Of a DNA stretch of 63,824 bases, positions 8,684 through 63,799 are shown piece by piece. Origin of the DNA: a virus. The notes beneath the pieces are model-generated. The model was not told the origin of the DNA and searched no databases. It saw nothing but the letters and a program-made list of their open reading frames with translations. Where the stretch lies: the IMG/VR virus record IMGVR_UViG_3300005933_000010, positions 1 through 63,824 of that record; one strand, written 5' to 3'. The position numbers and the translations under genes are program-made. Position 1 is the first letter of the stretch, and every line of letters starts with the position of its first letter.

Positions 8684-8692
8684 ATTATACAC
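8684..8692 (-). promoter_or_regulatory. -10 element giving a probable leaderless transcript
   Basis: GTGTATAAT, with TATAAT at 8689-8684 and 7 nt to the ATG at 8676. The TAA of this box is also the stop codon of the upstream oxygenase gene. No ribosome site fits between. Confidence 0.5.
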
Positions 8693-9473
8693 TATCCAAC
8701 GAACCGTGAGTGTTTGTGTCATAACCCAGGGCCGTGCCTAACTGATTATACAGTGACCATGCGCTTTGCATCTTGGGCTCATTGGAAAGAGCTTTGTGGT
8801 ATGCTGCAATCCTACCCTGAAACTTTAAGGGGTCAAGAGGGAAATCTTGATTTAAGAATCTCCAATCTGTTAGGGGAGAGTAATCAAAAGTAAGGATTTT
8901 TACGAACTCCCCTTCTTTCCAGTTACGCTTTGGCCTGAAGTGAGGCTGATTTACTGCACTAAACATTATGGCATCTCCGACCTTTAGATCGTAGGACTTG
9001 CCATCAATATAAATCTCCCAATCAATGTTTCCGTCTAGCATGTAGTTAAACGTAACCAGTGTCTCAGTGTTGTCTATATGTGGAGGTAGGGAGGGAGCAT
9101 ATTTCCCATCTCCATGAACTGGGTTGTAGTCTATGTAACTGTAGTGGCATAGCTTAATTTCATCTTGGTGTAGGTGCTTGGCATACTTGTCCATGGTTAA
9201 TTCGAGGTCCACTGGGGCTAAGAACTCTACCATCTCTCTGGACATGTGAGAAACTTTCTTTGGGTCATACCAGTTTTTACCACGGTATTCTTCTTGTCCA
9301 CCTGGAACAAGGTAATGTTCTGGTTTTGCGTTAAGAAGGTTTTCTATGATAGCTTTGACCCTGTCTACCTGATCTTCAGAGAATGGCTTTTCCACGTAGA
9401 TTGGCAAGGTTTCATTGAACTTACTCATATTTGTTAGGTAATCCCACATGCCAGGGGCAGTAAATTTATTCAT
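8685..9473 (-). CDS. 2OG-Fe(II) oxygenase-like protein (copy 2)
   Basis: About 262 residues from the ATG at 9473. The iron motif is H132-x-D134 (PPHIDNT) and the distal segment is H178-F-R180-PK (NQPHFRPK), parallel to copy 1. A further N-terminal helical region of about 90 residues is absent from copy 1. An in-frame GTG at 9488 is an alternative start, but a TATACT box sits 6 nt before the ATG and overlaps that GTG, favouring the ATG as a leaderless start. Substrate unknown. Confidence 0.72.
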   Translation of the reverse strand: MNKFTAPGMWDYLTNMSKFNETLPIYVEKPFSEDQVDRVKAIIENLLNAKPEHYLVPGGQEEYRGKNWYDPKKVSHMSREMVEFLAPVDLELTMDKYAKHLHQDEIKLCHYSYIDYNPVHGDGKYAPSLPPHIDNTETLVTFNYMLDGNIDWEIYIDGKSYDLKVGDAIMFSAVNQPHFRPKRNWKEGEFVKILTFDYSPLTDWRFLNQDFPLDPLKFQGRIAAYHKALSNEPKMQSAWSLYNQLGTALGYDTNTHGSLDSV

Positions 9474-9477
9474 ACTA

Positions 9478-9765
9478 TTAGTATACACCCTTAACTAGCT
9501 GGTCTAAGATCTCAAACTCAATAACTGCAAGCCTGACCTTCTGGTTTCCTTCTCCTAGCACAAGGATGAGAGCTGGGTCTTTGCCCTGTGTCATAGCGTC
9601 TGTTACAGCTTTGGCCCAGATGTCTTTGTTTACGGTTATGCCTTTAGGATACTCCTTAAAGTCAACAACGAAGTTTTCCCAGCTAGCATCACCCTTGACC
9701 ATGTTTCGTCCTGAGTTCTTGTGCTGCTTAGCACCAATGCGCTTTGACTCTCCTCGTTCACTCAT
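9478..9765 (-). CDS. Putative PD-(D/E)XK nuclease, Holliday-junction-resolvase-like
   Basis: About 95 residues from the ATG at 9765 (MSERGESKRIG), which has AGGAAA 7 nt upstream; longer in-frame extensions lack such a site. The GAKQHKNSGR...KGDA segment, with D26, and DFK (D35, K37) match the acid and D/E-x-K pattern of small phage resolvase-like nucleases. The length is short for the fold. It overlaps the small zinc gene by 8 bp and sits next to the recombinase gene. Function is inferred from motif spacing. Confidence 0.55.
   Translation of the reverse strand: MSERGESKRIGAKQHKNSGRNMVKGDASWENFVVDFKEYPKGITVNKDIWAKAVTDAMTQGKDPALILVLGEGNQKVRLAVIEFEILDQLVKGVY
9480..9488 (-). promoter_or_regulatory. 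-10 element giving a probable leaderless transcript
   Basis: GTGTATACT with 6 nt to the ATG at 9473. It matches the boxes at 8684, 47486 and 47731 (GTGTATAAT/GTGTATACT). It overlaps the end of the nuclease-like gene. Confidence 0.45.
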
Positions 9766-9934
9766 AATTTTTCCTGCTTTTCTTTTGAGCAAAAGACACA
9801 GAAGACAAGTGCCTCTCAGGGCACAGCCAGGTAGTTTCTTTTGTATCTACATAAAGCCTAAGGCTTTTGACTATTACCTTGCATGTATGGCATGGGAACT
9901 CACCAACGATGATCTCATACTTCCCGTTAGCCAA
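9758..9934 (-). CDS. 58-residue zinc-binding-type small protein
   Basis: A short gene starting at TTG 9934, with a GGGGGA purine tract about 6 nt upstream inside the end of the recombinase gene. The product has C15-x2-C18 (CHTC) and C38...H42 (CPERH), a possible zinc-ribbon set, and a basic C-terminus (KKSRKN). It overlaps the recombinase stop by 8 bp and the nuclease-like start by 8 bp, the tight packing seen for real genes here. The unusual start codon is the main doubt. Confidence 0.65.
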   Translation of the reverse strand: MANGKYEIIVGEFPCHTCKVIVKSLRLYVDTKETTWLCPERHLSSVSFAQKKSRKNYE

Positions 9935-10934
9935 GGATCTTCCCCCTTAACTCTTCTTGGTACTCTGGGTTTTCTTTTACGTACTTGATAAAGGCATCTC
10001 TACCCTGAGCTTTTTCACCGTTAGGAAGCTTGTACCAAGCTCCTCCACGCTCTGTTAGCCCCATCATCTCTGCTGTGTCTACTAGGTCTCCAACGGTATC
10101 TATTCCTATAAGGTCTCCCTTAAAGTAGAAGTCGTACTCTGCGGTCTCTCCTGGAGCAGATGTCTTTGAGTGGGTTACTTCCCAGCGCACCTTTCGGCCA
10201 ACCTTCTGCTCGATAAGCTTGTCTCCTACGGGAATCTTATGCTTGATAGCATTGTTATCAGAAGTTGAAGAGAATAGCTTTATGATTGTCGAGGACATGA
10301 ACTGAGTAGTCTGACCACCAGATGGCTGCTGAGTAGCATACAGCCCACCAATGTTAGTCCTAGACTGAGAAATTGCCATGATCAGTGCTGGCTTTTCTCT
10401 GTTGTTCGCATAGTTGATCATTAACCAAGCATGCTTCAAGTCTTTAGATTCTGCACCTATCTGCTTTGTATTCTCCAGCTGCTTTAGCTCATCAGAATCT
10501 TTTTCAAAGTATACCGCTGGCAGAAGAGAACTAATACTATCAATGACAATCATATCGACTCCTGCATTTAGAAGACCGACTACTACATCGACCATGTCGT
10601 TAGTGCTTCTGGCCTCAGAGTATATTAACTGTGAGGTGTCTACTCCTAGAGCCATTGCCCACTCTTCATCGTAAGACATCTCGGCATCTACCCATGCGCA
10701 AAGCTTTCCATCCTTCTGTGCCATCGCTACTGTCTGAAGACATAAAGATGACTTGGCACTGGACTTGCTACCCCAGAGAAGAACCTGCCTTCCATAAGGC
10801 AGTCCGCCACCTAAGGCCTTATTCAGGCCCATACTAGGGGTAGCCTGGAATTCAGTTTTAATGCCAATACCTGACGCAACCTTCTTCCTAAGCTTCGGGT
10901 TGAGCATTGCTAGAGCTTCTTCAAACGTTGTCAT
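9927..10934 (-). CDS. RecA/UvsX-like recombinase
   Basis: 335 residues with a RecA-type ATPase core. Walker A is GSKSSAKS (residues 55-62) and Walker B is MIVIDSISS. The SQSRTNIGGLYATQQPSGG region corresponds to the L1/switch area, followed by the DNA-binding L2 region. The ATG overlaps the polymerase gene by 14 bp. It would catalyse strand exchange in phage recombination and recombination-dependent replication, together with the nearby ssDNA-binding protein, Cas4-like exonuclease and resolvase. Confidence 0.9.
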   Translation of the reverse strand: MTTFEEALAMLNPKLRKKVASGIGIKTEFQATPSMGLNKALGGGLPYGRQVLLWGSKSSAKSSLCLQTVAMAQKDGKLCAWVDAEMSYDEEWAMALGVDTSQLIYSEARSTNDMVDVVVGLLNAGVDMIVIDSISSLLPAVYFEKDSDELKQLENTKQIGAESKDLKHAWLMINYANNREKPALIMAISQSRTNIGGLYATQQPSGGQTTQFMSSTIIKLFSSTSDNNAIKHKIPVGDKLIEQKVGRKVRWEVTHSKTSAPGETAEYDFYFKGDLIGIDTVGDLVDTAEMMGLTERGGAWYKLPNGEKAQGRDAFIKYVKENPEYQEELRGKILG

Positions 10935-15009: not shown

Positions 15010-15954
15010 TTATTGTAGCATGCCCTCTATAGATTTGTCAAACGCAATGTCTAACTTTTTAATCTCTTCGTCTGGCATGTCTCCAACGTCTTTATATTTT
15101 TTGTCTATCTTTATTACGGATACACGGCCCTTAAGCTTATCTTGAAGCTTAGTTACCATATTCCCCCCTGCCTCATCGTTATCTGCAATAACAAAAATAT
15201 TATTGAAGTACTTTTGAAGAAGTCCTATTTGTATTGAGGATACGTTAGATCCTAGAGTAGCAACTGCTGGTAGGCCACACTGATCAAGCCTAATGACATC
15301 AAAGGATGACTCGACAACATACACACTGTTGGATGTTTTTATCCTATGAAGGTTGAACAATACTTTACTTTTTGGCAGACCTGGAGTGTTCTTAAATGAC
15401 TTCCCCTCTACCGACCTACCCACAAACCCAATGCTAGTTCCGTCTGGTGCTGCGACTGGGACTGTCACCATGTCCTGCCTCTCAGAGAATCCAAGTCTAA
15501 ACTTTCGCATAGACTCTTCTGTAATTTTTCTACCAGAAAAGTATTCCTTAGCTCGTGTGGACTCTAAAGCTTCTGAGGAGAGCCTTATGATCTGAAGGTC
15601 GTCGTAGGGAACATATAGGGGCTTTACGTATAGCTGCCTGTCAATCTCCATAGCGAGATTAATCTCAGTCTCTTTACTCTTAATAAATCTAGCAGACTCA
15701 AAATATGTTCTGGAGGATGTGTGCATGACTAGCTCTATCAAGTCTGCAACTTTGTGACATGAAAAACAAAAGAAGGTTCCCTTTGATTTATCGACTTCTC
15801 CAGCTGGGGTGCGATGGTTTGGATGGAATGGGCAAAAAAGGAGAAAGTCTACGTCGACTTCACCCTCTATAGTTAGGCCTGCTCCTGTGAGAACTCGTTT
15901 GATTTGCTCTTCGGAGTATAGATGACCTGTGTTGCGTTTACTGACTCTATCCAT
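15010..15954 (-). CDS. DnaG-like primase
   Basis: 314 residues. The N-terminal zinc finger has C41-P-F-H44 and C63-F-S-C66 (CHCC type). The TOPRIM domain shows E in VVESSFD and DxD in IADNDEAGG. A linker region (FRLGFSERQ) matches the DnaG N-terminal catalytic core. It would make RNA primers with the DnaB-like helicase encoded just upstream. The ATG at 15954 lies 82 bp inside the previous gene in another frame; no later in-frame start precedes the zinc finger, so the overlap appears real. Confidence 0.9.
   Translation of the reverse strand: MDRVSKRNTGHLYSEEQIKRVLTGAGLTIEGEVDVDFLLFCPFHPNHRTPAGEVDKSKGTFFCFSCHKVADLIELVMHTSSRTYFESARFIKSKETEINLAMEIDRQLYVKPLYVPYDDLQIIRLSSEALESTRAKEYFSGRKITEESMRKFRLGFSERQDMVTVPVAAPDGTSIGFVGRSVEGKSFKNTPGLPKSKVLFNLHRIKTSNSVYVVESSFDVIRLDQCGLPAVATLGSNVSSIQIGLLQKYFNNIFVIADNDEAGGNMVTKLQDKLKGRVSVIKIDKKYKDVGDMPDEEIKKLDIAFDKSIEGMLQ
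15012..15041 (-). promoter_or_regulatory. Sigma-70/SigA-type promoter for the ssDNA-binding protein gene
   Basis: TTGACA at 15041-15036, an 18-bp spacer, then TACAAT at 15017-15012 preceded by TGC. It overlaps the last codons and stop of the primase gene. The resulting leader of about 25 nt carries AGGAG. Confidence 0.8.
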
Positions 15955-16205: not shown

Positions 16206-16214
16206 ATTATACTA
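16206..16214 (-). promoter_or_regulatory. -10 element giving a probable leaderless transcript
   Basis: TAGTATAAT with 6 nt to the ATG at 16199. The TAG is the helicase stop codon, so no leader fits. Confidence 0.45.
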
Positions 16215-18952: not shown

Positions 18953-18961
18953 ATTATAGCA
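18953..18961 (-). promoter_or_regulatory. Extended -10 element, near-leaderless
   Basis: TGCTATAAT with 8 nt to the ATG at 18944. It occupies the 28-bp gap after the Fn3-like gene. Confidence 0.5.
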
Positions 18962-32896: not shown

Positions 32897-32919
32897 TCAC
32901 TAGCACCTCGTGTTAAGTA

Positions 32920-33234: not shown

Positions 33235-33251
33235 TTGTGTTTACCTCTCCA

Positions 33252-33282: not shown

Positions 33283-33297
33283 TAGTTAGGGGACGGA

Positions 33298-33996: not shown

Positions 33997-34005
33997 ATTA
34001 TAGCA
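33997..34005 (-). promoter_or_regulatory. Extended -10 element giving a probable leaderless transcript
   Basis: TGCTATAAT with 6 nt to the ATG at 33990. It begins inside the T-rich tail of the terminator at 34001-34036, so the two signals are fused. Confidence 0.6.
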
Positions 34006-34036
34006 AAAGAAAACCCCCTAGCATTACACTAGGGGG
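34001..34036 (-). terminator. Rho-independent terminator after the major tail protein gene
   Basis: Minus strand: a perfect 8-bp stem CCCCCTAG/CTAGGGGG (34036-34029 and 34021-34014) with loop TGTAATG, followed by TTTTCTTTTGC. It lies 26 bp after the major tail protein stop. Confidence 0.88.
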
Positions 34037-34766: not shown

Positions 34767-34775
34767 ATTATACCA
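34767..34775 (-). promoter_or_regulatory. Extended -10 promoter for the major tail protein
   Basis: TGGTATAAT, 57 nt before the ATG at 34709, producing a leader of about 50 nt with GAGGTG. There is no TTGACA upstream. Confidence 0.6.
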
Positions 34776-37875: not shown

Positions 37876-37884
37876 ATTATATCA
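37876..37884 (-). promoter_or_regulatory. Extended -10 promoter after the capsid terminator
   Basis: TGATATAAT, about 30 nt before the ATG at 37847, beginning 12 bp past the T-tract of the capsid-gene terminator. Confidence 0.55.
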
Positions 37885-39076: not shown

Positions 39077-39080
39077 ATTG

Positions 39081-40476: not shown

Positions 40477-40484
40477 ACTACTAT

Positions 40485-40493
40485 ATTATAGAC
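40485..40493 (-). promoter_or_regulatory. -10 element, near-leaderless, before the protease-scaffold gene
   Basis: GTCTATAAT with 8 nt to the ATG at 40476, in a 59-bp gap. No purine-rich ribosome site between. Confidence 0.5.
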
Positions 40494-40535
40494 CCTTTTT
40501 GCTAAATTGTTACGCTTTTGTAATATTAGCAAAAA

Positions 40536-42137: not shown

Positions 42138-42505
42138 TATTCCTCATCTCCATAAAGAGATATGGTGTCTTTGGCTGCTTGGACAGCTCCTAAGTCATTA
42201 AGGTTTGGAAGGAGTCCTTGCTTCATTCGATCTACCTGCTCAGAATACTCTTCTTCTGAAACTCGGCCAGCACCTGCTATAAACTCGTAAGATCCATCAC
42301 CATGGCCGAGGGCTGTCGCTTCGTTTGTTAGCTTCTGAAGCTGAAGAACGTCACCTTTGTGTGAAGGAATGTTTAAAACACTTCCGTGGCCGTCTGTATA
42401 AGGCTTCCCGTTTGCTTTCTTCCAAAAATAAATACCCCAGGGGTAGTCCTTGTTTAAGACTGTAATCTTTGATTTACCAATTTGCCCGTTATTATTCTCT
42501 TCCAT
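42137..42505 (-). CDS. Hypothetical protein before the portal
   Basis: About 122 residues from the ATG at 42505. A beta-rich N-terminal half (KITVLNKDYPWGIYFWKKANGKPY) is followed by an acidic helix (SEEEYSEQVDRMKQGL). Family not recognised. TGGTATACT lies 7 nt before the ATG, so it may head a leaderless head-gene transcript; a TTG two codons upstream is a less likely start. Confidence 0.65.
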   Translation of the reverse strand: MEENNNGQIGKSKITVLNKDYPWGIYFWKKANGKPYTDGHGSVLNIPSHKGDVLQLQKLTNEATALGHGDGSYEFIAGAGRVSEEEYSEQVDRMKQGLLPNLNDLGAVQAAKDTISLYGDEE

Positions 42506-42512
42506 GTACAAT

Positions 42513-42521
42513 AGTATACCA
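42513..42521 (-). promoter_or_regulatory. Extended -10 element giving a probable leaderless transcript
   Basis: TGGTATACT with 7 nt to the ATG at 42505. It would start the head-gene transcript (portal and downstream). Confidence 0.55.
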
Positions 42522-42523
42522 CA

Positions 42524-45500: not shown

Positions 45501-46060
45501 GTTATTGGACCTGTAATTGATTCTGGGTGGGCCGAGACTACAGAGATTGAGGGGTAGAACGACTCTGAGTTTATTTCTGAAACGGAAAAGGTTTCTGATA
45601 TGAAAGACCAGTTAGTGTTTGACGATACTGGAAAGGACGTTGCCTTGGTAACGGGCAGGCCTGTCTCTGAGTCTACATAAGTGTACCCTACTGAAATAGA
45701 GAGCACTGTTTCACTGACCGCTAGAAGATGAATGCCTATGCAGAAGGTGTCCTTCGTAGAAGAAAACGAATCAACCATAACTGGATATACCAGGGGGGAC
45801 GCTGCGCCAAAAGACGTGAACCCAGAGGTGCTTGTCGTTAACGACATTAGACCCAAGGGTGAAAGTGGGTAAGGAGCTGGATAATCTAGGGCTGAACTAT
45901 CTGGTGACAAGACTTCAGAATTTACTGGCTGCCATTGGGAGAAGTCTCTTTGGGGGTCAGAGACTAATGATAGATAGTCTACCTGCTCTTCTAGGGCCCA
46001 GAGAGCTAGGGGGTGTTCTGCAAATATCTTTTCTGCATAAAGATTCGAGGGTTGAGACAT
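42524..46060 (-). CDS. Large minor tail / appendage protein with LamG-like domains
   Basis: 1178 residues, beta-rich. Several concanavalin/LamG-like jelly rolls are suggested by KEYTFEMWFRPNSFATSSTRIFGP, RPMLVNIKTLKDSASLLINGESVATLTF and VAFYLNGKLVRQPVINLDQWNMLGV. Such domains usually bind host surface glycans. The ATG at 46060 has TAAAAT 6 nt before it. It is the last gene of the appendage cluster before the head genes. Confidence 0.75.
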   Translation of the reverse strand: MSQPSNLYAEKIFAEHPLALWALEEQVDYLSLVSDPQRDFSQWQPVNSEVLSPDSSALDYPAPYPLSPLGLMSLTTSTSGFTSFGAASPLVYPVMVDSFSSTKDTFCIGIHLLAVSETVLSISVGYTYVDSETGLPVTKATSFPVSSNTNWSFISETFSVSEINSESFYPSISVVSAHPESITGPITHLVYVNGLTVGQNAEEFNYGSLGISPSGQEENIFGVEPSDILVPSDQYGIVGRKAYYVVKGGDNLVAQNSGMPLVYGAQNATVMTNSQGTPNLLIPGYGFMNDSGRNKEYTFEMWFRPNSFATSSTRIFGPVASNDGIYIDGAFLRLKLGGSVASHYVGDSFRPMLVNIKTLKDSASLLINGESVATLTFDSATIPLPAPKLNGKNQDFLAFYTSDAVPQIDVDCVAIYSYSVPSLVAKRRMAYGQAVEFPENVNTAYSGTTAYFDYNFADYTNNYSYPNVGRWYQGISDNLVFDNDVLSTPSYGLPQLVMQDETTYTDWVSENSSNQVVDEDLFFSFSSPGYLYFEKLRMLTQDTRAIYMVFETSGYSENKQVLLRVEDNLTTNNFEVSVTGSDVSYTLNYEGVETSLYTESDLIANTKAFAGIDIDGLAKYFGRTFTAFFGNKSRLSVYVGSDKDFESPFSGKIYSINFCTNKNFQKVSAFFQDPEIISTDFVADAGDNHFGTDASTWFRTFDGGFADSFSLDGAASHIASYSLRAKSIFDNYSIDILADSYWEDYIPLKHFAQYVTNSDSGSYYDLDFLQFNVGYPAIRKFLAGSFDTSNSSVKSYITFQYLATGATAQPGYFTETMSAPQSGIVEPGDNWMTTRYEVVNGSIIYLPKNIDFLDIALVTSLEIVSQGISLDKIKIKSLEYASQAFNGDTSNPIGTRFGLPVFPYRKYNLYYDYKTRNPYKIYKRSSPYLYLTSDSGIKKVGEQERVTDRGLSIPVNLNLSEKYRVVSMQMAMRFDEESFPDKVRVFEVEAKNSYIKFYLAKVGTSGKRAKLYAVNAATGAVNDGVAFYLNGKLVRQPVINLDQWNMLGVTFSTVLNFDSYSGGIRITGPLMVNNVSQYQSTNLQEIQEQDFRQWSEVATSPADISGLGWKFWSNTYIWNGVLVKSSTNIYGITPDDIYRTYIGTNKIIVDDNQSISIGNYEYSAYADIKWATSVATPV

Positions 46061-46066
46061 AACTCT

Positions 46067-46075
46067 ATTTTAGCA
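46067..46075 (-). promoter_or_regulatory. Extended -10 element giving a probable leaderless transcript
   Basis: TGCTAAAAT with 6 nt to the ATG at 46060, in a 23-bp gap. Confidence 0.45.
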
Positions 46076-46083
46076 TACTAAAA

Positions 46084-46344
46084 CTATTTTTCATTGCCTT
46101 CTGGCTCTGCTGCTCCCCATTTGCCGATTGGGCAGGTAGCATGTGGCAGCTTTGTTTTTGCGTCCATTAGGCATCCACATTTTCTGCACTGTCTGCTGAG
46201 CTTAAACAAGAACTCACAGCCGAGGCATGCGTCCATTCTTGACTTTGAAACTTCTTTTGACACTCTACCAATAGAAGGGTTCAGGAGATCCCAGGGGCGA
46301 GCGGTCTTCCCCAGCTTTGGGATATTCGGAAGATCTTCGCTCAT
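46084..46344 (-). CDS. RPWDLLNP zinc-binding protein (copy 1)
   Basis: 86 residues. TARPWDLLNP near residue 14-23 is followed by C-x2-C (CLGC), CRKCGC and CP (HATCPIGKWG). Paralogous to the protein at 58051-58302, sharing RPWDLLNP, the cysteine spacing and the CP...KWG end. Similar cysteine-rich proteins occur near tail genes of other environmental phages. It overlaps the upstream gene by one base. Function unknown. Confidence 0.75.
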   Translation of the reverse strand: MSEDLPNIPKLGKTARPWDLLNPSIGRVSKEVSKSRMDACLGCEFLFKLSRQCRKCGCLMDAKTKLPHATCPIGKWGAAEPEGNEK

Positions 46345-46778
46345 TATTTTTCAGACTCTTTAGGTTTTGCAAAGTTTTCCTTTTCGTAAAGATATCCTAG
46401 TTTTACGTCAGTCTCTGATGGACTAAAGACTACGAACTTTGGACTTGCCAAAAGGTAGTCGGCTATTCTTTCGTCTGCTCTTATAACGTCCACAACTTTG
46501 GAGTCTAACACCATGGCTAGGTGATAAACAGATATGTCTTTTGGTGCAGGATTATAGTTTGGGTCCTTTAAGTTTTTCTTTTCTTGAATCTCATTCTTTA
46601 GCTTTTCCAGTTCTACGGGGGCATTTTTCCCTAGAAGCAACTTGTCTATCAGGAATAGCTTTAGGACCTGGACTGTTGTCAGCTGGACATAGTCTGCATC
46701 CCACTTAGGATTGATCTTTGCCTTTTCTGGCTTACGGACGTCGTCTTTAATACTGTTAATAAAATCTTTAATACTCAT
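46344..46778 (-). CDS. Hypothetical helical protein in the appendage cluster
   Basis: 144 residues, helical and lysine-rich (LEKLKNEIQEKKNLKD). The end reads VKLGYLYEKENF, similar in pattern to the G-W/L-x-Y-x2-G-x-F motif of the small proteins at 47494 and 58295. TAATG-type coupling to neighbours. A fibre-assembly helper is possible but unproven. Confidence 0.6.
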   Translation of the reverse strand: MSIKDFINSIKDDVRKPEKAKINPKWDADYVQLTTVQVLKLFLIDKLLLGKNAPVELEKLKNEIQEKKNLKDPNYNPAPKDISVYHLAMVLDSKVVDVIRADERIADYLLASPKFVVFSPSETDVKLGYLYEKENFAKPKESEK

Positions 46779-47467
46779 TAGTCAAACTTCTTTCTATGCC
46801 ATGCTATTTTACTGTAGGGAGTGTCTGGGTTTCTGACAATTGTAGATTTTATCTCCACAGTATCTTTCATCCCCTTGTCAAACACCATCTTCCAAGAAGA
46901 TCTCTTGACTGGCAAGATCTGTGCGATGGGGGTTCCAGCTTTGATAGTCCCCGAAAACCCCTCCTCAATAAAAAAAGGAATGTTTCCTCCACTGGAGTAT
47001 GCGTCTGAGTCCATTATGGCCGACACTGTTCTAAAAGGCAAGTCGTCCCTGTTCAGGGGATGAGTTACGAGGGTCGACCAGCCTCTTGGAGTCTTCCAAG
47101 CCCATTTCCCTGAGAATACCAAATGGTTGGGAGCAAAGCCTTTAGGTCTTGGCATTGTAGCTCCTAGCCCACCTGGTCTTTCGTTGATAAAATTGCCAAA
47201 GGGAGTCTTTCTGTCCCAGGATAAGCTCAGGTCTCCGTCTTCATCCGTAGAGACTTCGACGTCAGTTGGAAAAGTTATAACGTAGCCAGAAATCATAGCA
47301 TCCATGTACGGCATGCACTTTTTTAGCCCTGCGGACTTGGTTCCGTCTTTGTCTGTAAAAAAACTTTCTGCCTTTTTAAACCAGTCTGGAAGGACTCTCT
47401 TAGCTGGTAAAGGTAGGCCAAAGTTGCGAGTACGCTCATTTACGTAAAACTTAATTATTTTCATCAT
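46778..47467 (-). CDS. Conserved-looking hypothetical protein
   Basis: 229 residues. Segments such as PAKRVLPDWFKKAESFF, LKKCMPYMDAMISGYVITFPTDVEV and GTPIAQILPVKRSSW look like a globular enzyme-like or beta-rich fold, and the GTPIAQILP strand resembles a dUTPase-type strand in pattern only. I recall similar proteins in environmental tailed phages but cannot name the family with confidence. Two ATGs in tandem at 47467 and 47464. Function unknown. Confidence 0.6.
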   Translation of the reverse strand: MMKIIKFYVNERTRNFGLPLPAKRVLPDWFKKAESFFTDKDGTKSAGLKKCMPYMDAMISGYVITFPTDVEVSTDEDGDLSLSWDRKTPFGNFINERPGGLGATMPRPKGFAPNHLVFSGKWAWKTPRGWSTLVTHPLNRDDLPFRTVSAIMDSDAYSSGGNIPFFIEEGFSGTIKAGTPIAQILPVKRSSWKMVFDKGMKDTVEIKSTIVRNPDTPYSKIAWHRKKFD

Positions 47468-47485
47468 AGAGTCCGATCTCTATCT

Positions 47486-47494
47486 AGTATACAC
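47486..47494 (-). promoter_or_regulatory. -10 element with short leader
   Basis: GTGTATACT, 18 nt before the ATG at 47467. Same GTG-type box as at 8684, 9480 and 47731. Confidence 0.35.
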
Positions 47495-47724
47495 TATTCT
47501 GCGTTAGAGAATGTACCCGTGGAAGCATCATAGAGTTGACCTACGGTTGTGGCACCATTGGCAACTTGAACAAAAGTCGGGTTTGACATGTACAACGCAG
47601 CGGACTGGCCTTCACAATTAAGAACCTGATAAACAACACCCTCGTGTACGACTGCTAGGTAGAATTCGTGAAGGGGACGCTTCAGCTCGAGTACGGGGTC
47701 TAGGTCTGGTAATGGCAATGTCAT
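47494..47724 (-). CDS. Small fibre-associated protein
   Basis: 76 residues ending in VGQLYDASTGTFSNAE, the strand-turn pattern typical of small proteins encoded next to tail fibres. The first half is beta-rich (FYLAVVHEGVVYQVLN). TATAAT lies 6 nt before the ATG with no ribosome site. A fibre chaperone or minor appendage protein is plausible. Confidence 0.55.
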   Translation of the reverse strand: MTLPLPDLDPVLELKRPLHEFYLAVVHEGVVYQVLNCEGQSAALYMSNPTFVQVANGATTVGQLYDASTGTFSNAE

Positions 47725-47730
47725 ACTTTA

Positions 47731-47739
47731 ATTATACAC
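47731..47739 (-). promoter_or_regulatory. -10 element giving a probable leaderless transcript
   Basis: GTGTATAAT with 6 nt to the ATG at 47724. The TAA is also the stop codon of the Cys-rich gene upstream. Confidence 0.45.
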
Positions 47740-48703
47740 CCCTTTCTATATTAATTTCGGAAACAGTTTTAGACTCATTGTAGCTGGAGGGGGACACCAC
47801 GATTCCAAATTTAGTGGACTCTACAGCCGTAGATGCGTTATGAGAATCTGTGCGAATTGGAGAATACAGCGAGGCATCAGAAAAGGACTCTACAGTTATC
47901 ATTTTATTCGAAGTCTTAACCCTTAATGAGCGTAAGACAGTCGTGATTTTCCAGCTCACTATCTCAGACACGGAACTTGCTATAGACTGCAAGACTCTAA
48001 TGTACTGTGGGTAGCAGGTCTCGCAAGAAGTTCCGCTACAGGTGCCACAATTACAGGAAAAGTAGTAGGTAACCGAGCAACATCCGTAGCTAGTACCACA
48101 GTGGGGTTGGAAGCACGCAGTGGATCCAGGAGAGTAGGCTGTGCAATCTTGCCAGGATATCTGGGTATACCCCGAGCAGTTACCATTTGCGTATCGAGAG
48201 GAGCAGTAGTTTCCGTACTGTGTACTCCAGCTTGAGCAATAGGGTGGGTTCTGATAACAGATCGGTGTGGGGCAATAGTATCCAGTGACACAATCGTAGC
48301 CATTACAATAGCTGCCAGAACATGTGGAGCAACCGCAGGAATAAGTGTACCCCGTACAGTTGCAACTTTCCGTGATTTGCTCTGATGAGACTGACCACCA
48401 GTTACCTGCATCGGTAACCCATAGAGCTGCGCCAATGCCTTGTCCCATATCTTTTATTTCTATCTTGACGTCAGGGACTAGGGCGTCAACAACAACTAGG
48501 GGGTACGTAGAAGAAGAGGCAGAAGTTGTTAGTTTTGAAGAAGATATTCCCCACACTCCACGAAGGAAGGACCACTTTCTTTTGTTACTCTGTCCCAGGA
48601 TGGCAGAGCTTAAGGAAGACCCAGAAAACTCAGAGGCAAAAATAGTTCTTATAGCTTTTGGGAGTGATTGCTGGTTGGCTCGCAAGATTGCTTTTATGCC
48701 CAT
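47732..48703 (-). CDS. Cys-rich appendage protein
   Basis: 323 residues. A stretch of about 120 residues from about residue 115 contains 22 cysteines (for example CNCTGY, CGCSTC, CNCGTC), with repeats at its two ends (SCGCSTCSG and SCNCGTCSG). The flanks are ordinary strands. So many cysteines in a probably extracellular virion protein suggest a disulfide-stabilised domain, or a metal-binding one. It abuts the upstream fibre gene. No family recognised. Confidence 0.65.
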   Translation of the reverse strand: MGIKAILRANQQSLPKAIRTIFASEFSGSSLSSAILGQSNKRKWSFLRGVWGISSSKLTTSASSSTYPLVVVDALVPDVKIEIKDMGQGIGAALWVTDAGNWWSVSSEQITESCNCTGYTYSCGCSTCSGSYCNGYDCVTGYYCPTPICYQNPPYCSSWSTQYGNYCSSRYANGNCSGYTQISWQDCTAYSPGSTACFQPHCGTSYGCCSVTYYFSCNCGTCSGTSCETCYPQYIRVLQSIASSVSEIVSWKITTVLRSLRVKTSNKMITVESFSDASLYSPIRTDSHNASTAVESTKFGIVVSPSSYNESKTVSEINIERGV

Positions 48704-48704
48704 A

Positions 48705-50390
48705 TTACTCTAGGTCCCCCATCAAGTACCAGACATTCGTATCTCTCTTTATTAGAGTTGCTGAAGAGTACTGGGTCCTTGTTTTGTTGCTAGGGGTGAA
48801 GTTCAGAGATACCCCAGAAGCTCCCACAATAGTAATTTGACCAGAACCTTTCTGCATAACAGTTATCGTTGATCCAATTGGAAAGGCTACTGAAGAGTTG
48901 TTGGGTACCGTGAAGGTAACCTCCGATGTACATTCTACCATCTTGTCTTTGTCTGTGATCTCAAAAGTGTAGGGTCCGTACCTGGGGTTAAAATCTACAA
49001 GACTTGGAGCTATGTCTATAGACGTAGCTTCCCACTTATCCGATGAAGAAGAGTACTGTAACAGGGATTTATCAATCATGCCTGTTAGGTCTACGTCGGA
49101 AAGTTGGGCTACAGATGATGCTGCAGAACCTGGTAGCCAAGTTCCAGAGGCTAGATCATAAGCTAAGACATCCGTGTCTGACAATCCAGTTAAATCTACG
49201 TCAGTTAATTCTGATAGTGCTGCTGCTGCAGGAAGCACTGGGGTGTAAGTAAGAAGTCCGTCGTCGTAAGCTAAGCCACCAGTGGTGCTTCCAGTACCCT
49301 CAACGGCTACGGATATGTCTGGGCTTGTGGGCTGTCCTCCCAAGGCCCCAGCTACTTCTTGAACATGAAATTGAACATCAGCGTTTTGACCAATGTACGA
49401 GGTACCTGATGACGCCTGGCCTTTAATTCTATAGGTAACTATTGTTCCTACGTCTAGATTATGCTGATCGTAGTACGTCCAGCCAAAGTCCCTAGTCCCT
49501 AGGATTGGCCAAGTGAAGAGATCTGTCTCTACAGAGTCAACCACCCGAACAAGCTTTACCGAGGACGAGCCGAAGTGGTCGCTGGTCAGGCTTATTAGGT
49601 TTACGTAACTAGAAGTCGTAGTTATGGACACTTCTAGTTTCTTTGCTCCATCCCAATAAGTATATACAGATCCTGTGGATGCAGCAAAAGTGGTTGTACT
49701 ATTCAATACCCCAAAAGATCCTGCTGTAACTCCAGTTATGGCTGGAGCAAAACTGAAAGCCCCTGTGTTGGAGTTATAGGATAGCTCTCCTGCTCCTGTG
49801 GGGACTCCAGTAGTTACAGTTATGGCATCGATGCCTACAAGTTCTTTTGGCTTCCAGGTTTGATCGGAGTTGTCGAAAAACAGAACATCGTTTAAATTAG
49901 CTCCTGAGGGGTCTACATTTGTTAGGTCGGAGAGGGTATGCGTGTGGTCGGTAGCAGCTTTTGTATCTAAAGCTGCAAGAATTGTGCCGATGTCTCCGTC
50001 GTTCTCAGCAATGGCTTCTGCTATTTCTTTAAGAGTGTTTAGAGTTTCTGGTGCTGAATCAATTAGAGAGGCTATCTCGGTATCCGTGTAAGTGTTTGAT
50101 GCCGTCTCTGAGTCGCTGATGGCTTGTGAGAGGGTACTCTCAGTTGATAAGATAGCTGCATCAAGCTCTGTGTCAGAGTATACGTTTGCGCTTGCTAAGA
50201 CGGCTAGTCTGATTGCTTCTATGTCTTCTGCATTCTGGAAATATGGTAACAAGGACCAAGCCGTTACTCCATCACCCATCCTGAATGTTTGGTCATCGGT
50301 AGATAGGGCAATCTCTCCAGCAGCAAGAACGGGGTCTGAGGAAGACCACTGAGTGTCTGTACCTCTTCTTTGTTGAAGCCTAATTAGCAA
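48705..50390 (-). CDS. Tail fibre protein with QRRGT N-terminus
   Basis: 561 residues. Residues 1-50 (RLQQRRGTDTQWSSSDPVLAAGEI...FRMGDG) match the Mtd-type N-terminal phage fibre domain. A helical TLNTLKEIAEAIAEND stretch follows, then beta repeats (LSELTDVDLTGLSDTDVLAYD, repeated). The last 95 residues share a module with the proteins at 52115 and 59368 (VPNNSSVAFPIGS...GDLE). The start is TTG 50390, aligned with the Met of the 52115-54109 protein, with AGGAG 6 nt upstream. Confidence 0.8.
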   Translation of the reverse strand: MLIRLQQRRGTDTQWSSSDPVLAAGEIALSTDDQTFRMGDGVTAWSLLPYFQNAEDIEAIRLAVLASANVYSDTELDAAILSTESTLSQAISDSETASNTYTDTEIASLIDSAPETLNTLKEIAEAIAENDGDIGTILAALDTKAATDHTHTLSDLTNVDPSGANLNDVLFFDNSDQTWKPKELVGIDAITVTTGVPTGAGELSYNSNTGAFSFAPAITGVTAGSFGVLNSTTTFAASTGSVYTYWDGAKKLEVSITTTSSYVNLISLTSDHFGSSSVKLVRVVDSVETDLFTWPILGTRDFGWTYYDQHNLDVGTIVTYRIKGQASSGTSYIGQNADVQFHVQEVAGALGGQPTSPDISVAVEGTGSTTGGLAYDDGLLTYTPVLPAAAALSELTDVDLTGLSDTDVLAYDLASGTWLPGSAASSVAQLSDVDLTGMIDKSLLQYSSSSDKWEATSIDIAPSLVDFNPRYGPYTFEITDKDKMVECTSEVTFTVPNNSSVAFPIGSTITVMQKGSGQITIVGASGVSLNFTPSNKTRTQYSSATLIKRDTNVWYLMGDLE

Positions 50391-54154: not shown

Positions 54155-54163
54155 ATTATACCA
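54155..54163 (-). promoter_or_regulatory. Extended -10 promoter before the 664-residue fibre gene
   Basis: TGGTATAAT, 45 nt before the ATG at 54109. GTAGGAG precedes the ATG. Confidence 0.55.
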
Positions 54164-56698: not shown

Positions 56699-56707
56699 AT
56701 TATAGTG
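56699..56707 (-). promoter_or_regulatory. -10 element giving a probable leaderless transcript
   Basis: CACTATAAT with 6 nt to the ATG at 56692. It lacks the TG of the extended form but has the same spacing. Confidence 0.45.
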
Positions 56708-56724: not shown

Positions 56725-57030
56725 TTAAAGTATATAGTTGTTCAGACCCAGTATGGCAATTCCAATGGGAGCAGGGTGGCTGGGGCCGTAAGCCACTCCC
56801 AAATTGGTTATTCTCACCCGAAATGGGAGTCTTTCAGATACTAAAGCTGCTCTTTCGTTAGCGAAGGATTTTGAGTTTGAAAAATGTGCGGACTGGACCT
56901 TTTCGGTGTTATGGACAAGGTCTGTTATCTTCAGAGATGTTGACTCACCAGAAAGTAATGTGGCTTTAGGGAAGAACTTTGTCTGCATCTCAACTTTTTG
57001 AGTTTGCTTAAGAATAGCTGATGAAGCCAT
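56725..57030 (-). CDS. Small appendage protein
   Basis: 101 residues, beta-rich in the second half (ERLPFRVRITNLGVAYGPSHPAPIGIAILGLN). No recognised family. The ATG overlaps the upstream gene end (ATG...TAA...ATG packing), so it is probably a subunit produced with its neighbours. Confidence 0.6.
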   Translation of the reverse strand: MASSAILKQTQKVEMQTKFFPKATLLSGESTSLKITDLVHNTEKVQSAHFSNSKSFANERAALVSERLPFRVRITNLGVAYGPSHPAPIGIAILGLNNYIL

Positions 57031-57404
57031 TATTTTGTTACATCCTCAAAGATTACTAAGCTGCCACTTGCAACTGTCCATACGTAGAGTGCTGGGTTGG
57101 ACGTTAGCTGTATATCGAAGACATCTCCTGTTTCTAAAATTTCTGACTGAGAGGACAGAAGAGAAACCGTAAACTCTCCTGGGGCCTCTCCTAAGATTGC
57201 TGAGGGGTTCAAAGACATAACCAAGGTCCCAGCTCTTTTTATGTCCATCTTTATGTCCCAGTCGGGAATGTTTAAGGAAACCCTATTGTCGTCAGTTACG
57301 TATACCCGAAATGACGCCGTGTCACCACGGACAACCGTCCAAGATACTTTTGGTGGAGTGTTTCCTACTTCGTATGAGTTCGTTGATCCTCTTTGGGTTG
57401 CCAT
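57030..57404 (-). CDS. 'RGDT' beta-sandwich baseplate/fibre protein (copy 1)
   Basis: About 124 residues from the ATG at 57404 (MATQRG); longer readings are unlikely, because TATAAT lies 6 nt before this ATG. The domain WTVVRGDTASFRVYVTDDNRV...WDIKMDIKRAGT matches the proteins at 61573 and 63395 and resembles BppU-type upper-baseplate or phage Ig-like modules. Probably an adaptor that holds fibres to the tail tip. Confidence 0.65.
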   Translation of the reverse strand: MATQRGSTNSYEVGNTPPKVSWTVVRGDTASFRVYVTDDNRVSLNIPDWDIKMDIKRAGTLVMSLNPSAILGEAPGEFTVSLLSSQSEILETGDVFDIQLTSNPALYVWTVASGSLVIFEDVTK

Positions 57405-57410
57405 AGTAAA

Positions 57411-57419
57411 ATTATACCA
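57411..57419 (-). promoter_or_regulatory. Extended -10 element giving a probable leaderless transcript (divergent pair)
   Basis: TGGTATAAT with 6 nt to the ATG at 57404. It faces away from the plus-strand TGGTATAAT at 57466-57474, forming a divergent promoter region. Confidence 0.6.
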
Positions 57420-57445
57420 TAATACTTTAAGATTACATCGCAAGG

Positions 57446-57474
57446 TTGATTTAGGACCATAATCCTGGTATAAT
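57446..57474 (+). promoter_or_regulatory. Promoter for the plus-strand lysin gene
   Basis: TTGATT at 57446-57451, a 17-bp spacer, then TATAAT at 57469-57474 preceded by TGG. Only 8 nt separate it from the ATG at 57483, so the message would be nearly leaderless. Confidence 0.65.
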
Positions 57475-57482
57475 GTTATCTT

Positions 57483-58070
57483 ATGGACAAAAAAGCCATT
57501 GTTTCCCTTGGTCTCGTCGCAGGAATTTTGACTGGTGTTAGCCAGTGTAACGAAATTGAAACCCCACGAGCCTTTGCTAAAGAATTAGAAATCACACAAA
57601 CACTTTCTGTCGGCAACAGAATGAACCTTATAGAAGTATTACCAGAATCTAGAAGTTTTTCCAGGCTAGAGGTTTCTATCAAAACAACCCAGCCCTGGCT
57701 TAGAGAAGATTTTCAGAAGATGGTCTTGTCTGACACAGATCTTATATCAGTTTTAGAGAACGCTGGATTTTCTGGTAAAGGGTTGCAGATGGCTTGGGCT
57801 GTAGTAAAGCTTGAATCAACAAACAGGCTCTATGCTCATAACCAAAACTCAAGTACTGGAGACAACTCTTACGGTCTTTTTCAGATCAACATGATTGGGA
57901 GCATGGGTCCAGCAAGACTTAAGCAACATGGTCTTAAAACTAATGAAGAACTCTTTAGCCCTGAAGTAAACTCTAGAGTTGCATATGTAATCTCTGACGG
58001 AGGCTCTTCCTGGAGTGCTTGGACTACTAGCGAAAAAGCTAAGGCTATGCTTAATCAGTTTCCTGGTTAG
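57483..58070 (+). CDS. Secreted lytic transglycosylase / lysozyme-like lysin
   Basis: 195 residues, the only plus-strand gene. The N-terminus is a signal peptide: MDKK, a hydrophobic stretch (residues 5-20), then an AFA|K cleavage-type site after A32. The C-terminal 100 residues have the SLT/lysozyme-like fold with candidate catalytic Glu111 (VVKLESTNR) and GLFQIN (131-136). It probably cleaves peptidoglycan during lysis; no holin lies beside it. Its last 20 bp overlap the convergent zinc gene. Confidence 0.8.
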   Translation: MDKKAIVSLGLVAGILTGVSQCNEIETPRAFAKELEITQTLSVGNRMNLIEVLPESRSFSRLEVSIKTTQPWLREDFQKMVLSDTDLISVLENAGFSGKGLQMAWAVVKLESTNRLYAHNQNSSTGDNSYGLFQINMIGSMGPARLKQHGLKTNEELFSPEVNSRVAYVISDGGSSWSAWTTSEKAKAMLNQFPG

Positions 58071-58531: not shown

Positions 58532-58540
58532 AGTATAACA
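58532..58540 (-). promoter_or_regulatory. Extended -10 element giving a probable leaderless transcript
   Basis: TGTTATACT with 6 nt to the ATG at 58525. Confidence 0.5.
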
Positions 58541-60923: not shown

Positions 60924-61573
60924 TAGGTTGCTCGGCCTCCAATAGTTATGAATGTGTGTACGTAGTATTCACCGTTAAGAGGCTGCCAGCCATTTGTTGG
61001 ATGTAACTCTTGAGCTACCAGGGAAAGAGGCAAGTGACTACTACCTAATGGAACTGTAACTCCACTGAATTCATATGTGGCAGTAATGTCAGAAACCGTA
61101 AGGCCTGAGGCCACGGGGTTTGAACAAAGAATATTGTGCTGAATACTAAAGTCTAAGGCTTCAATGTCTCCAAGTATATCAATAGAAAAGAATGTCGCTA
61201 AGGGGAACAGAATTGTCGGAATCTGTATCCCATTAAGTTCGTAGACCGCTTGACCGCTTACAAAAGTTATTAGTGGGTTGTACAAGGCTGTATTAGGAAC
61301 AATCCTAATCGTCCTTTGCCAGGAGGCTACTCCATTTACAGATGTATACTGATACAGGAAAAGGTATTCTGTGTCTGCTGGCTTTAGGTTTATGTAGAGA
61401 TCATTAATGGCAGCAACAAACCCTAGCTCTGTGTTTGGGTCGTCTGGTTTCCCGTCTCCAGTAAAGATAAAGCTTCCCCGTTTTCCCTGTGTGCCAATGT
61501 CCACATTAACTGTCAAAGAGGATGGTCCTCCAAGTACTGTTAGGTCGTTGGTGGCAAGGACTACGTCGACCAC
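60923..61573 (-). CDS. Appendage protein, beta-rich
   Basis: 216 residues with strand-rich sequence (LTVLGGPSSLTVNVDIGTQGKRGSFIFTGDG, ALDFSIQHNILCSNP). GTQGKRGSF near residues 26-34 resembles the glycine-rich neck that often precedes collagen-like repeats in phage fibres. No named family. Coupled by overlap to both neighbours. Confidence 0.6.
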   Translation of the reverse strand: MVDVVLATNDLTVLGGPSSLTVNVDIGTQGKRGSFIFTGDGKPDDPNTELGFVAAINDLYINLKPADTEYLFLYQYTSVNGVASWQRTIRIVPNTALYNPLITFVSGQAVYELNGIQIPTILFPLATFFSIDILGDIEALDFSIQHNILCSNPVASGLTVSDITATYEFSGVTVPLGSSHLPLSLVAQELHPTNGWQPLNGEYYVHTFITIGGRAT

Positions 61574-61950
61574 TAGACTGCTCCTGTTACCTGGTCAGTT
61601 ACTGAAAGTGTTCCTGTAAGAAGTGTGTAGGTAAAGTCGTAGTCCGATACTCCTACTTTTGAAATCTCTATGTCATACACGTACTGAGATAGGGCATTAA
61701 GGAGGTTACCAGAGCTGGGTAGGATTGCACATGAAATATAGGTTCTGTCTATTGAAATTTCTGCAAAAGCTTCAATTTGGCTAGCAGCTCCTGAAGAACC
61801 TCGGGAGGGAGCAATCGTAAACTTTGCCCCTGCAGCTAAGTCATAACCATCTAGTGGAAATACTGCTCCTGAAGAGTCTTTGGGGTATATTCTAAATTCA
61901 AAGGTGTCACCTTTGTAGTAAGCTATGTTATAGGTTCCTGGAAATGCCAT
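61573..61950 (-). CDS. 'RGDT'-type beta-sandwich protein (copy 2)
   Basis: 125 residues. NIAYYKGDTFEFRIYPKDSSG...GYDLAAGAKFTIAPS has the same order of strands as the proteins at 57030 and 63395, with KGDT in place of RGDT. Probably a baseplate or fibre adaptor. TATAAT lies 7 nt before the ATG with no ribosome site. Confidence 0.65.
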   Translation of the reverse strand: MAFPGTYNIAYYKGDTFEFRIYPKDSSGAVFPLDGYDLAAGAKFTIAPSRGSSGAASQIEAFAEISIDRTYISCAILPSSGNLLNALSQYVYDIEISKVGVSDYDFTYTLLTGTLSVTDQVTGAV

Positions 61951-61957: not shown

Positions 61958-61966
61958 ATTATAGCA
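61958..61966 (-). promoter_or_regulatory. Extended -10 element giving a probable leaderless transcript
   Basis: TGCTATAAT with 7 nt to the ATG at 61950, in an 18-bp gap. Confidence 0.6.
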
Positions 61967-62697: not shown

Positions 62698-62706
62698 ATT
62701 ATCTCA
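62698..62706 (-). promoter_or_regulatory. Extended -10 element giving a probable leaderless transcript
   Basis: TGAGATAAT with 6 nt to the ATG at 62691. One mismatch from TATAAT. Confidence 0.4.
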
Positions 62707-62733: not shown

Positions 62734-62952
62734 CTACTCTATAGCTGAAAGTCTTGAAGCTATTTGGTCTAAAGCTGTAGCAATTGTTGTAGGCTGAGGT
62801 TCCATCCAGTCTGAAGGCTCTGAAGGAACGTAGGGAGAGGCAACGGATCCGATTGGCCCCGTAAGGCCAACCTCTCCCTGAATACCTTGAGCTCCTGTTG
62901 CACCACGAGGTCCTAAGACTCCTGGAAACGGCACTATTTTAATTTTTGGCAT
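62734..62952 (-). CDS. Small collagen-like protein
   Basis: 72 residues: an N-terminal PKIKIVPFPG strand, about seven Gly-X-Y triplets (GVLGPRGATGAQGIQGEVG), then a C-terminal segment DWMEPQPTTIATALDQIASRLSAIE that is a short coiled coil common in phage fibre proteins. AAAGG precedes the ATG. Probably a short trimeric fibre. Confidence 0.7.
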   Translation of the reverse strand: MPKIKIVPFPGVLGPRGATGAQGIQGEVGLTGPIGSVASPYVPSEPSDWMEPQPTTIATALDQIASRLSAIE

Positions 62953-62969
62953 TTATGCTTTCCTTTATA

Positions 62970-63395
62970 TTAGGTCATATCTATATACTGTATACCTGGA
63001 GCAGCCGTAATGGCAATTACTCCTGGAGTCACACAGTCATACTCTAGGTCAGAGTAGGCAGCAACGTGTGATAGACCGCCGTAGACGGGGCTTGAGGCAG
63101 CTACACCAGCAACGTTTACGACGTTTAACTTGGCAGCACCCGATGGCCCTGCTACCGTAGATGTTGCTCCTACGGAACCTTGTAATCCCTGTTCACCCTG
63201 TACACCTTGTGGGCCCTTAACGGTACTGTCAGCGCCTCTAGGACCCTCGACGGTGCTATCTAATCCTGCTTCTCCCTGTGGTCCTTGTGGGCCTTGTTGT
63301 CCTGGCATAGGGACAATCTTGAATTTTGACATTACGAGAGGGGAATCTGGGGCAGAAGAGCCTGGAAGTGGAATAATCTTTATTTTTGCAACCAT
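62970..63395 (-). CDS. Collagen-like fibre protein with doubled N-terminal strand
   Basis: About 141 residues from the ATG at 63395, which overlaps the upstream stop (TAATG). Two copies of a K-I/F-K-I-x-P-x-PG strand occur ([10 protein letters not shown] and [10 protein letters not shown]), then interrupted Gly-X-Y repeats ([17 protein letters not shown], repeated) with STV inserts. A C-terminal beta segment follows. The doubled strand may reflect fusion of two genes. Confidence 0.75.
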
Positions 63396-63781
63396 TAGAG
63401 AGCGCTTCCCGTCACATCTCCGATTACAGAGATTGTTCCTATGACAGGAGTCCAAACTGTAGTTTCGTCAATGGTTATCTGTAGGTCAAAAGGTAGCTCT
63501 GCAACAATCTTATTATAACCAGTTCCCCAGAGGGCTGTAACAGCTGCCGAGGCACTAATCTCTATAAATCCTTCTCCAGCAACGACGTCTAGCTCATCAA
63601 TGGCGTCACCTTTGTAGTCATAAGCAGACGCTTGGTAGGTCCAGCCAGTCATGTCGTAAAAAGTTACTTCATCATTTTGATAAAACTCAATCCTCAGGGG
63701 AGAGGTATCTCCTCTAACAATGTTCCATTTAAGAATAGCAGGGTTAGCGCCAAGCATTTCAGGAGAGCAAAGTGAAGTCAT
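63395..63781 (-). CDS. 'RGDT' beta-sandwich protein (copy 3)
   Basis: 128 residues. [41 protein letters not shown] and [24 protein letters not shown] give the same strand order as copies 1 and 2. TATAAT lies 9 nt before the ATG. It is the first gene in the window in the direction of transcription. Confidence 0.65.
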
Positions 63782-63790
63782 AGTAGTTAT

Positions 63791-63799
63791 ATTATAACA
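63791..63799 (-). promoter_or_regulatory. Extended -10 element, near-leaderless
   Basis: TGTTATAAT with 9 nt to the ATG at 63781. A TTGATT occurs 15 bp upstream of the TATAAT, a short spacing for a -35. Confidence 0.45.

Follow-up and report, generated by a model that had tools for sequence, protein, structure and literature searches.

How is a gene started when the stop codon of its upstream neighbour lies only a few nucleotides (nt) away and no ribosome binding site stands before it? The question is raised by IMG/VR virus record IMGVR_UViG_3300005933_000010, a sequence of 63,824 nt (44% G+C) that was analysed over its full length and is referred to here as the window. Its genes lie nearly all on the minus strand and include those for ribonucleotide reductase, terminase, DNA polymerase, helicase, portal, protease and major capsid protein; as a near-identical relative of 111 kilobases (kb) is present in IMG/VR (loci L162 and L245), the window is a fragment. 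A -10 box stands directly before many of these start codons. We propose, with a probability of roughly 85%, that these boxes are extended -10 promoters (TGn-TATAAT with no -35) for the host RNA polymerase and its main sigma factor, and that they would yield leaderless mRNAs.

The gene set comprised 67 minus-strand genes and one plus-strand gene, called by hand from the list of open reading frames (ORFs), and a box was accepted when T1, A2 and T6 were fixed (T-A-N-N-N-T) and at least five of six positions matched TATAAT. Under this rule 15 of the 68 gene starts, one of them on the plus strand, have a box ending 6-9 nt before the start codon. A preliminary description of the window had named 16 starts with a box at this distance, and all hold except 62691, which carries GATAAT only. 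The boxes are listed below, with genes named by the coordinate of the start codon and fractions giving the diverged orthologues that have a box 5-10 nt from the start; SD denotes a Shine-Dalgarno sequence.

8684..8689, minus strand: -10 box GTG-TATAAT, 7 nt before ATG 8676; holds the TAA stop of the upstream gene; 4/12 diverged orthologues.
9480..9485, minus strand: -10 box GTG-TATACT, 6 nt before ATG 9473; overlaps the upstream TAA stop by one base, the final T of the box; 2/5 orthologues.
16206..16211, minus strand: -10 box TATAAT, 6 nt before ATG 16199; box and spacer fill the 12-nt gap behind the helicase stop; 51/51 orthologues.
18953..18958, minus strand: -10 box TGC-TATAAT, 8 nt before ATG 18944; 52/66 orthologues, the remaining 14 with an SD.
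33997..34002, minus strand: -10 box TGC-TATAAT, 6 nt before ATG 33990; directly behind the T-run of a terminator-like hairpin; 22/25 orthologues.
34014..34036, minus strand: terminator-like hairpin (10 base pairs, bp) with T-run, behind the Ig-domain gene 34062-34709; abuts the 33990 promoter candidate.
40485..40490, minus strand: -10 box TATAAT, 8 nt before ATG 40476 (head maturation protease); 55/56 orthologues.
42513..42518, minus strand: -10 box TGG-TATACT, 7 nt before ATG 42505 (small gene before portal); 29/29 orthologues.
46067..46072, minus strand: -10 box TGC-TAAAAT, 6 nt before ATG 46060 (protein of 1178 amino acids, aa); among 34 orthologues 10 have a near box, 20 an SD and 4 neither.
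47731..47736, minus strand: -10 box GTG-TATAAT, 6 nt before ATG 47724; holds the upstream TAA stop; the relatives found are all near-identical.
56699..56704, minus strand: -10 box TATAAT, 6 nt before ATG 56692; 5/5 orthologues.
57411..57416, minus strand: -10 box TGG-TATAAT, 6 nt before ATG 57404; divergent from the 57483 promoter candidate; near box in two diverged relatives (L047, L049).
57469..57474, plus strand: -10 box TGG-TATAAT, 8 nt before the start (ATG 57483) of the sole gene called on this strand; relatives all near-identical.
58532..58537, minus strand: -10 box TGT-TATACT, 6 nt before ATG 58525; relatives all near-identical.
61958..61963, minus strand: -10 box TGC-TATAAT, 7 nt before ATG 61950; relatives all near-identical.
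62698..62703, minus strand: weak box TGA-GATAAT, 6 nt before ATG 62691; has G in place of the required T1 and is left out of the statistics.
63791..63796, minus strand: -10 box TGT-TATAAT, 9 nt before ATG 63781; relatives all near-identical.

With an A+T content of 56%, the window could be expected to hold some such boxes as chance matches in AT-rich DNA. Enrichment over shuffled sequence had been named in advance as a check: 500 dinucleotide shuffles of the 70-nt upstream regions gave a mean of 1.72 and a maximum of 8, and windows of 4 nt at other offsets a mean of 1.98 and a maximum of 5, against the 15 observed. Exact TATAAT stands at 6-9 nt before 11 of the 68 starts (shuffled mean 0.22), and only 3 of 359 internal in-frame ATGs have such a box. 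Hand-called starts differ from the longest ORF at 9473, 42505 and 57404, which annotation by longest ORF would misplace; even with longest-ORF starts used throughout, 12 of the 68 retain a box, and a rougher gene set, made up of ORFs of 100 aa or more with the longest start, gives 8 of 57 against a background of 1.64. The strand bias is equally marked, as TGn-TATAAT, TGn-TATACT and TGn-TACAAT occur 10, 7 and 6 times on the minus strand and 1, 0 and 0 times on the plus strand, and GTG-TATA(A/C)T five times and not at all, so that the elements described initially ("about seventeen" and "four") are present in somewhat greater number. The sole plus-strand TGn-TATAAT stands before the only plus-strand gene called (57483), and all ten on the minus strand precede gene starts: five lie at 6-9 nt, the other five at 25-57 nt with an SD between box and start, albeit a weak one (AAGG) at 51255. 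The earlier statement that nearly every true gap holds a box was too strong, the figure being 16 of 27 gaps of 12-250 nt. Shuffles, internal ATGs, strand bias and the conservation described below all contradict chance, to which we assign a negligible probability.

A scan for the strict box at 5-8 nt, given as observed versus expected background, found 15 versus 4.3 in the window and 19 versus 5.7 in parts of its 111-kb sister genome; parts of the Streptomyces phage Daubenski gave 0 versus 0.0, 4 versus 1.0 and 3 versus 0.9. The excess was absent from lambda (20 kb, 0 versus 0.3), T4 (40 kb, 0 versus 4.9) and Microbacterium phage Min1 (0 versus 0.0).

Conservation in relatives, likewise a check named in advance, was followed start by start, and the layout proved to be conserved. 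Relatives were drawn from IMG/VR by portal and helicase scans, each with at least 600 matches, 80 loci of each being retained, and a tblastn search with the window proteins covered 164 relative loci, in which 2,111 hits were placed exclusively and by best bit score. We kept 1202 upstream regions with protein identity below 92%, an aligned N-terminus and a distinct upstream sequence, having dropped 135 near-identical cases, 187 duplicate upstreams, 499 whose N-terminus did not align, 84 that lacked a start codon and 4 at an edge; genes with at least three rows were tabulated (1197 rows). A box at 5-10 nt is present in 230 of 283 diverged orthologues of the genes that are leaderless in the window, as opposed to 31 of 914 for the other genes, where the near boxes belong to 20552 (13), 8100 (8), 35338 (6), 50390 (2) and 54109 (2). 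Control genes of the SD type have no near box in any orthologue (14979, 0/58; 34709, 0/29; 17432, 0/67; 25385, 0/33, with an SD in 33/33).

Before 42505 the 18-nt intergenic region (42505-42523) is nearly invariant in 29 orthologues, with TATACT and TGGTT, or a close variant, ahead of the ATG. A tandem second -10 box seen there in 24 of 29 orthologues (TATAAT or TATAGT) was rejected as a promoter and is read as a stop codon, because it holds the stop of the preceding gene in the window and TAA and TAG alternate in aligned orthologues.

The element itself has the form of an extended -10. The logo, together with the lists of mode switches, the SD-position count and the trees described below, rests on an earlier orthologue assignment (by lowest query start, in which the paralogues 33234 and 33990 were confused). 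Averaged over six leaderless genes with the box as anchor, it gives the TG position as T 0.75 and G 0.84, while no -35 signal was found 17-23 nt upstream of the box (below 0.15 bits). Across the 1202 kept upstreams, the coding strand holds 319 TGn boxes and the opposite strand 4. The boxes are thus TGn before TATAAT with weak or no -35.

Ribosome binding sites divide along the same line. A core SD is found in none of the 15 box genes and in 30 of the 53 remaining genes (Fisher p = 5e-5), in agreement with the preliminary description, which had also pointed to well-formed sites where the box lies farther away. Four such contrast boxes bear this out.

37876..37881, minus strand: TGA-TATAAT, 28 nt before ATG 37847; SD AAAGGAG between; hairpin 37935-37901 upstream.
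34767..34772, minus strand: TGG-TATAAT, 57 nt before ATG 34709; SD GAGGTGA between; SD without near box in 29/29 orthologues.
54155..54160, minus strand: TGG-TATAAT, 45 nt before ATG 54109; SD AGGAG between.
15012..15017, minus strand: TGC-TACAAT, 32 nt before ATG 14979; SD AGGAG between; SD without near box in 58/58 orthologues.

Over homologous starts the coupling of SD to distance is close. TGn boxes at 5-8 nt (n = 104) have an SD between box and start in 4 cases, near the shuffled value of 4.5; at 11-13 nt there are only 2 boxes; at 14-19 nt (n = 56) the SD is present in 54 (shuffled 21.8), at 20-29 nt in 36/36 (10.3), at 30-39 nt in 38/39 (14.2) and at 40-59 nt in 23/31 (14.1). Boxes at 14-39 nt taken together thus have an SD in 128 of 131 cases (shuffled about 46), and the distances are bimodal, 5-10 nt mostly without an SD and 14-39 nt with one.

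One might instead see in the conserved AT-rich block an unstructured ribosome stand-by site that aids SD-less translation on read-through mRNA and is no promoter at all, as would suit genes that lack an SD and, in 12 of 15 cases, lie behind another gene on the same strand. The TG is nevertheless fixed relative to the hexamer although the distance from box to ATG ranges from 5 to 10 nt, the same element stands 14-39 nt away where an SD is present, and at 33990 it follows a terminator-like hairpin. Furthermore, the SD-poor genes whose upstream gene overlaps or abuts never have a near box (15954, 0/54 orthologues; 17733, 0/65; 36015, 0/27). We therefore hold a stand-by site to be very improbable and retain the promoter interpretation.

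Individual genes also move between the two arrangements. Orthologues of 18944 comprise 35 with the box at 5-8 nt (SD in 0), 17 at 9-10 nt (SD in 6), 12 at 14-19 nt (SD in 12) and 2 without a box; those of 46060 comprise 12 at 6-9 nt (SD in 0), 21 farther away (SD in 20) and 4 without a box. By parsimony on quick helicase and portal protein trees each gene has changed mode at least six times, with 2 and 4 changes, respectively, forced by well-supported branches alone. In the 14-19 nt class the SD starts 5-8 nt behind the box, at about +1, in 57 of 65 cases with a core SD, a count dominated by the single gene 20552 (41 of 72 boxes). Upstream of 20552 itself TGnTACAATATAT is kept about 15 nt before the start in many orthologues, and the SD begins near the predicted first transcribed base. 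A tentative generalisation, which we put forward as possible rather than probable, is that the phage group uses a modular start unit consisting of an extended -10, about 6 nt, and then either AUG at +1 or an SD at about +1, that predicted leaders of 5-7 nt are shunned, and that genes flip form by gain or loss of roughly ten nucleotides. If true, the start unit would be a natural record of the leader lengths that ribosomes accept, and 5'-terminal SDs would form a distinct class.

We suggest the following course of events for the leaderless genes. The extended -10 box would be read by the host RNA polymerase carrying its main sigma factor, with initiation 6-7 nt past the box. Transcripts would then begin at the start codon or no more than about 3 nt from it, and the 5'-terminal AUG of such a leaderless mRNA would have to be taken directly by the ribosome. 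Genes behind a leaderless gene would be reached through overlap with the upstream gene or by their own SD; promoters expected farther upstream are accompanied by an SD, which in one class lies close to where transcription is predicted to begin. Twelve leaderless genes have a called same-strand neighbour upstream, at gaps of 4, 7, 8, 12, 18, 18, 18, 23, 28, 32, 59 and 71 nt, and in 10 of the 12 stop codon, promoter element and start codon are packed into 4-32 nt. The stop is shared with or touches the box at three genes (TAA inside TATAAT at 8676 and 47724, box ending on the first base of the stop at 9473), and at 16199 the stop runs directly into the box, which six bases separate from the ATG. 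Since stop, promoter and start share so few nucleotides, this compact layout would give single genes, virion genes among them, a promoter of their own inside a long one-strand array, and a role in gene dosage may be supposed.

The host is probably an actinobacterium, as indicated by WhiB at the level of the phylum and by a reductase nearest to Microbacteriaceae. A WhiB gene, described as a key indicator for actinophages in PMC10202952, is present in nine of nine large relatives, the 111-kb sister included. The best reductase matches are Rhodoluna, Aquiluna and other Microbacteriaceae (73-77%), perhaps marking the lineage of the host; as the gammaproteobacterium Salinicola also attains 73%, that assignment is tentative. 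In this presumed lineage TAnnnT is in excess at 6-7 nt, and over 5-8 nt it stands at 39 versus 18.8 in Rhodoluna (200 kb) and 38 versus 19.8 in Aquiluna, with the strict box not clearly in excess (0 versus 0.7 and 4 versus 2.0, respectively). The phages therefore seem to employ the consensus version of a signal that such hosts use in a degenerate one. Of the leaderless actinophage programme first envisaged, the promoter-like extended -10 placed for leaderless mRNAs and the assignment to an actinobacterial phage are supported, the latter by WhiB; "largely" overstates a share of about 22% of starts (15/68), and "late" finds no support, as boxes also precede the helicase-adjacent gene 16199 (51/51 orthologues), which has no known function, as well as ORFs elsewhere in the 111-kb sister.

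Phages may also make or modify polymerase specificity themselves, the late sigma factor gp55 of T4 being an example, and phage-specific late promoters are -35-less with a strict -10. The boxes could in that case serve such a specificity in place of the unmodified host holoenzyme, a view to which their resemblance to those late promoters lends some weight, as does a consensus that tolerates less variation than the degenerate TAnnnT in excess in the presumed host lineage. Sigma70 region 2 (PF04542), however, was found in none of the nine large relatives, whose records may be incomplete, a gp55-like profile not being part of the search, and sigma region 4 (PF08281) exceeded the cut-off in none of the nine, with two sub-threshold matches. 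No match to a single-subunit RNA polymerase was found, in a search whose control also gave none. The same box moreover serves leaderless genes, SD-led genes and ORFs in other regions of the genome. A phage-made specificity is on these grounds unlikely, and the failure to find a phage sigma factor favours the host polymerase as the reader of the extended -10.

Several observations weigh against the promoter interpretation, or narrow the base on which it stands. Boxes at 9-10 nt (n = 48) have an SD between box and start in 9 cases, more than the shuffled 4.1, and these SDs may serve read-through transcripts; the 45 boxes at 9 nt predict leaders of 0-3 nt and not of zero. When 19 relative loci were scored singly with crude ORF starts, 15 ratios lay above 1, one was equal and three lay below, the signal being weak throughout, and the pooled raw profile of box-to-ATG distances in relatives is dominated by a few repeated sites, in place of which the orthologue-by-orthologue counts were used. 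The latter are not independent, the sequences being akin, and hence no p-value is attached to them. Six of the 15 window boxes (47724, 57404, 57483, 58525, 61950 and 63781) have fewer than three usable diverged orthologues, and the near box is missing in most orthologues of 8676, 9473 and 46060. Finally, a scan of 30000-49000 for two-hexamer promoters (-35 and -10) gave a mild excess, 34 versus a shuffled 25.9 (standard deviation 4.8), which, being only mild, also fits an element consisting of the -10 alone.

Leaderless genes in Actinobacteria and some predicted leaderless phage promoters are already known; what the window and its relatives add is comparative documentation, the compaction, the gap in distances and the repeated switching. 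Zheng et al. 2011 (PMC3160421) report leaderless actinobacterial genes with TANNNT about 12 bp before the start codon, taken as the promoter, in 86 of 89 genomes, there averaging 19.2% of genes. Here, by contrast, the carrier is a phage, the element is near-consensus TATAAT with TG rather than degenerate TAnnnT, and it is kept at named phage genes. Of the 8-9 promoters predicted for Cluster O mycobacteriophages (PMC4351075), the SigA promoters PL1 and PR2, and PL2 in a similar position, are predicted to be leaderless, their +1 coinciding with the initial base of the start codon; the window has 15 starts of this kind within 64 kb, and these were followed across orthologues. Leaderless starts in actinobacterial phages were likewise predicted in PMC11373665. 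Lactococcus cremoris leaders (PMC10986495) are either shorter than 5 nt or about 40 nt long, and lengths between 4 and 14 nt were not found. A bimodal leader length is common to both systems, but the leaders of the bacterium were mapped by sequencing whereas those of the phages are predicted, and the shortest SD-led class of the phage group would have leaders of about 8-13 nt. The AR9 paper (PMC5312081) remarks in passing that phage transcripts are often leaderless; AR9's own mapped leaders are 26-491 nt, and the passage in question does not describe a conserved gene-by-gene layout. In the openly licensed PMC literature, represented mostly by titles and the beginnings of abstracts, no account of this phage group's promoters was found.

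Judged by capsid and protease, the annotated phages nearest to the window belong to the Stanwilliamsviridae (the Streptomyces phages Moab, Forrest, Wofford, Bartholomune and Daubenski), at about 39-44% protein identity (major capsid 43-44%, protease 39-43%, pre-portal 31% with E 1e-15). In four of these annotated phages, 17 of 75 starts have a TA---T box with at least four of six matches at 5-10 nt, a looser threshold applied without a shuffle control. Boxes stand 6-10 nt before several of the same genes as in the window, often in weaker form (TAAGAT, TATGAT, TATTAT). The pre-portal gene, the gene before it and the adaptor have one in 4/4, and the protease has a weak one in 3/4, Wofford having none. 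The pre-portal homology is sound, while the larger gene before it is only weakly homologous, and the adaptor differs in that its window homologue 37354 has a near box in 0/33 orthologues. Leaderless genes are usually studied as a property of the host; here many related phage contigs keep or switch the mode, a comparison which renders the ribosome question testable, namely which leader lengths work and how genes change mode, and the cultured Streptomyces phages with similar boxes offer a bench system, Daubenski, Wofford and Bartholomune having Streptomyces lividans or S. griseus as their recorded hosts.

Some features of the surrounding layout are of interest in their own right. The hairpin before 33990 is terminator-like in 15 of 25 orthologues as against 3% of shuffles, compared with 0-3 orthologues for seven other genes; over 30000-49000 terminator-like sites are not in excess (19 versus 15.7, standard deviation 3.5). 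A strong terminator-like hairpin of 15 bp (37901-37935) lies directly behind the major capsid gene and is followed by the SD-led promoter candidate for 37847. At 57404-57483 a divergent pair of putative leaderless promoters is spaced 78 nt apart, and the plus-strand gene there (57483-58070) has no PHROG match and, among the loci listed, only near-identical relatives. Genes 57030-57404 and 61573-61950 are both leaderless and both match phrog_1084, the pair being perhaps a duplication that included the promoter. The adjacent leaderless genes 8104-8676 and 8685-9473 both weakly match phrog_2954, described as ferrochelatase.

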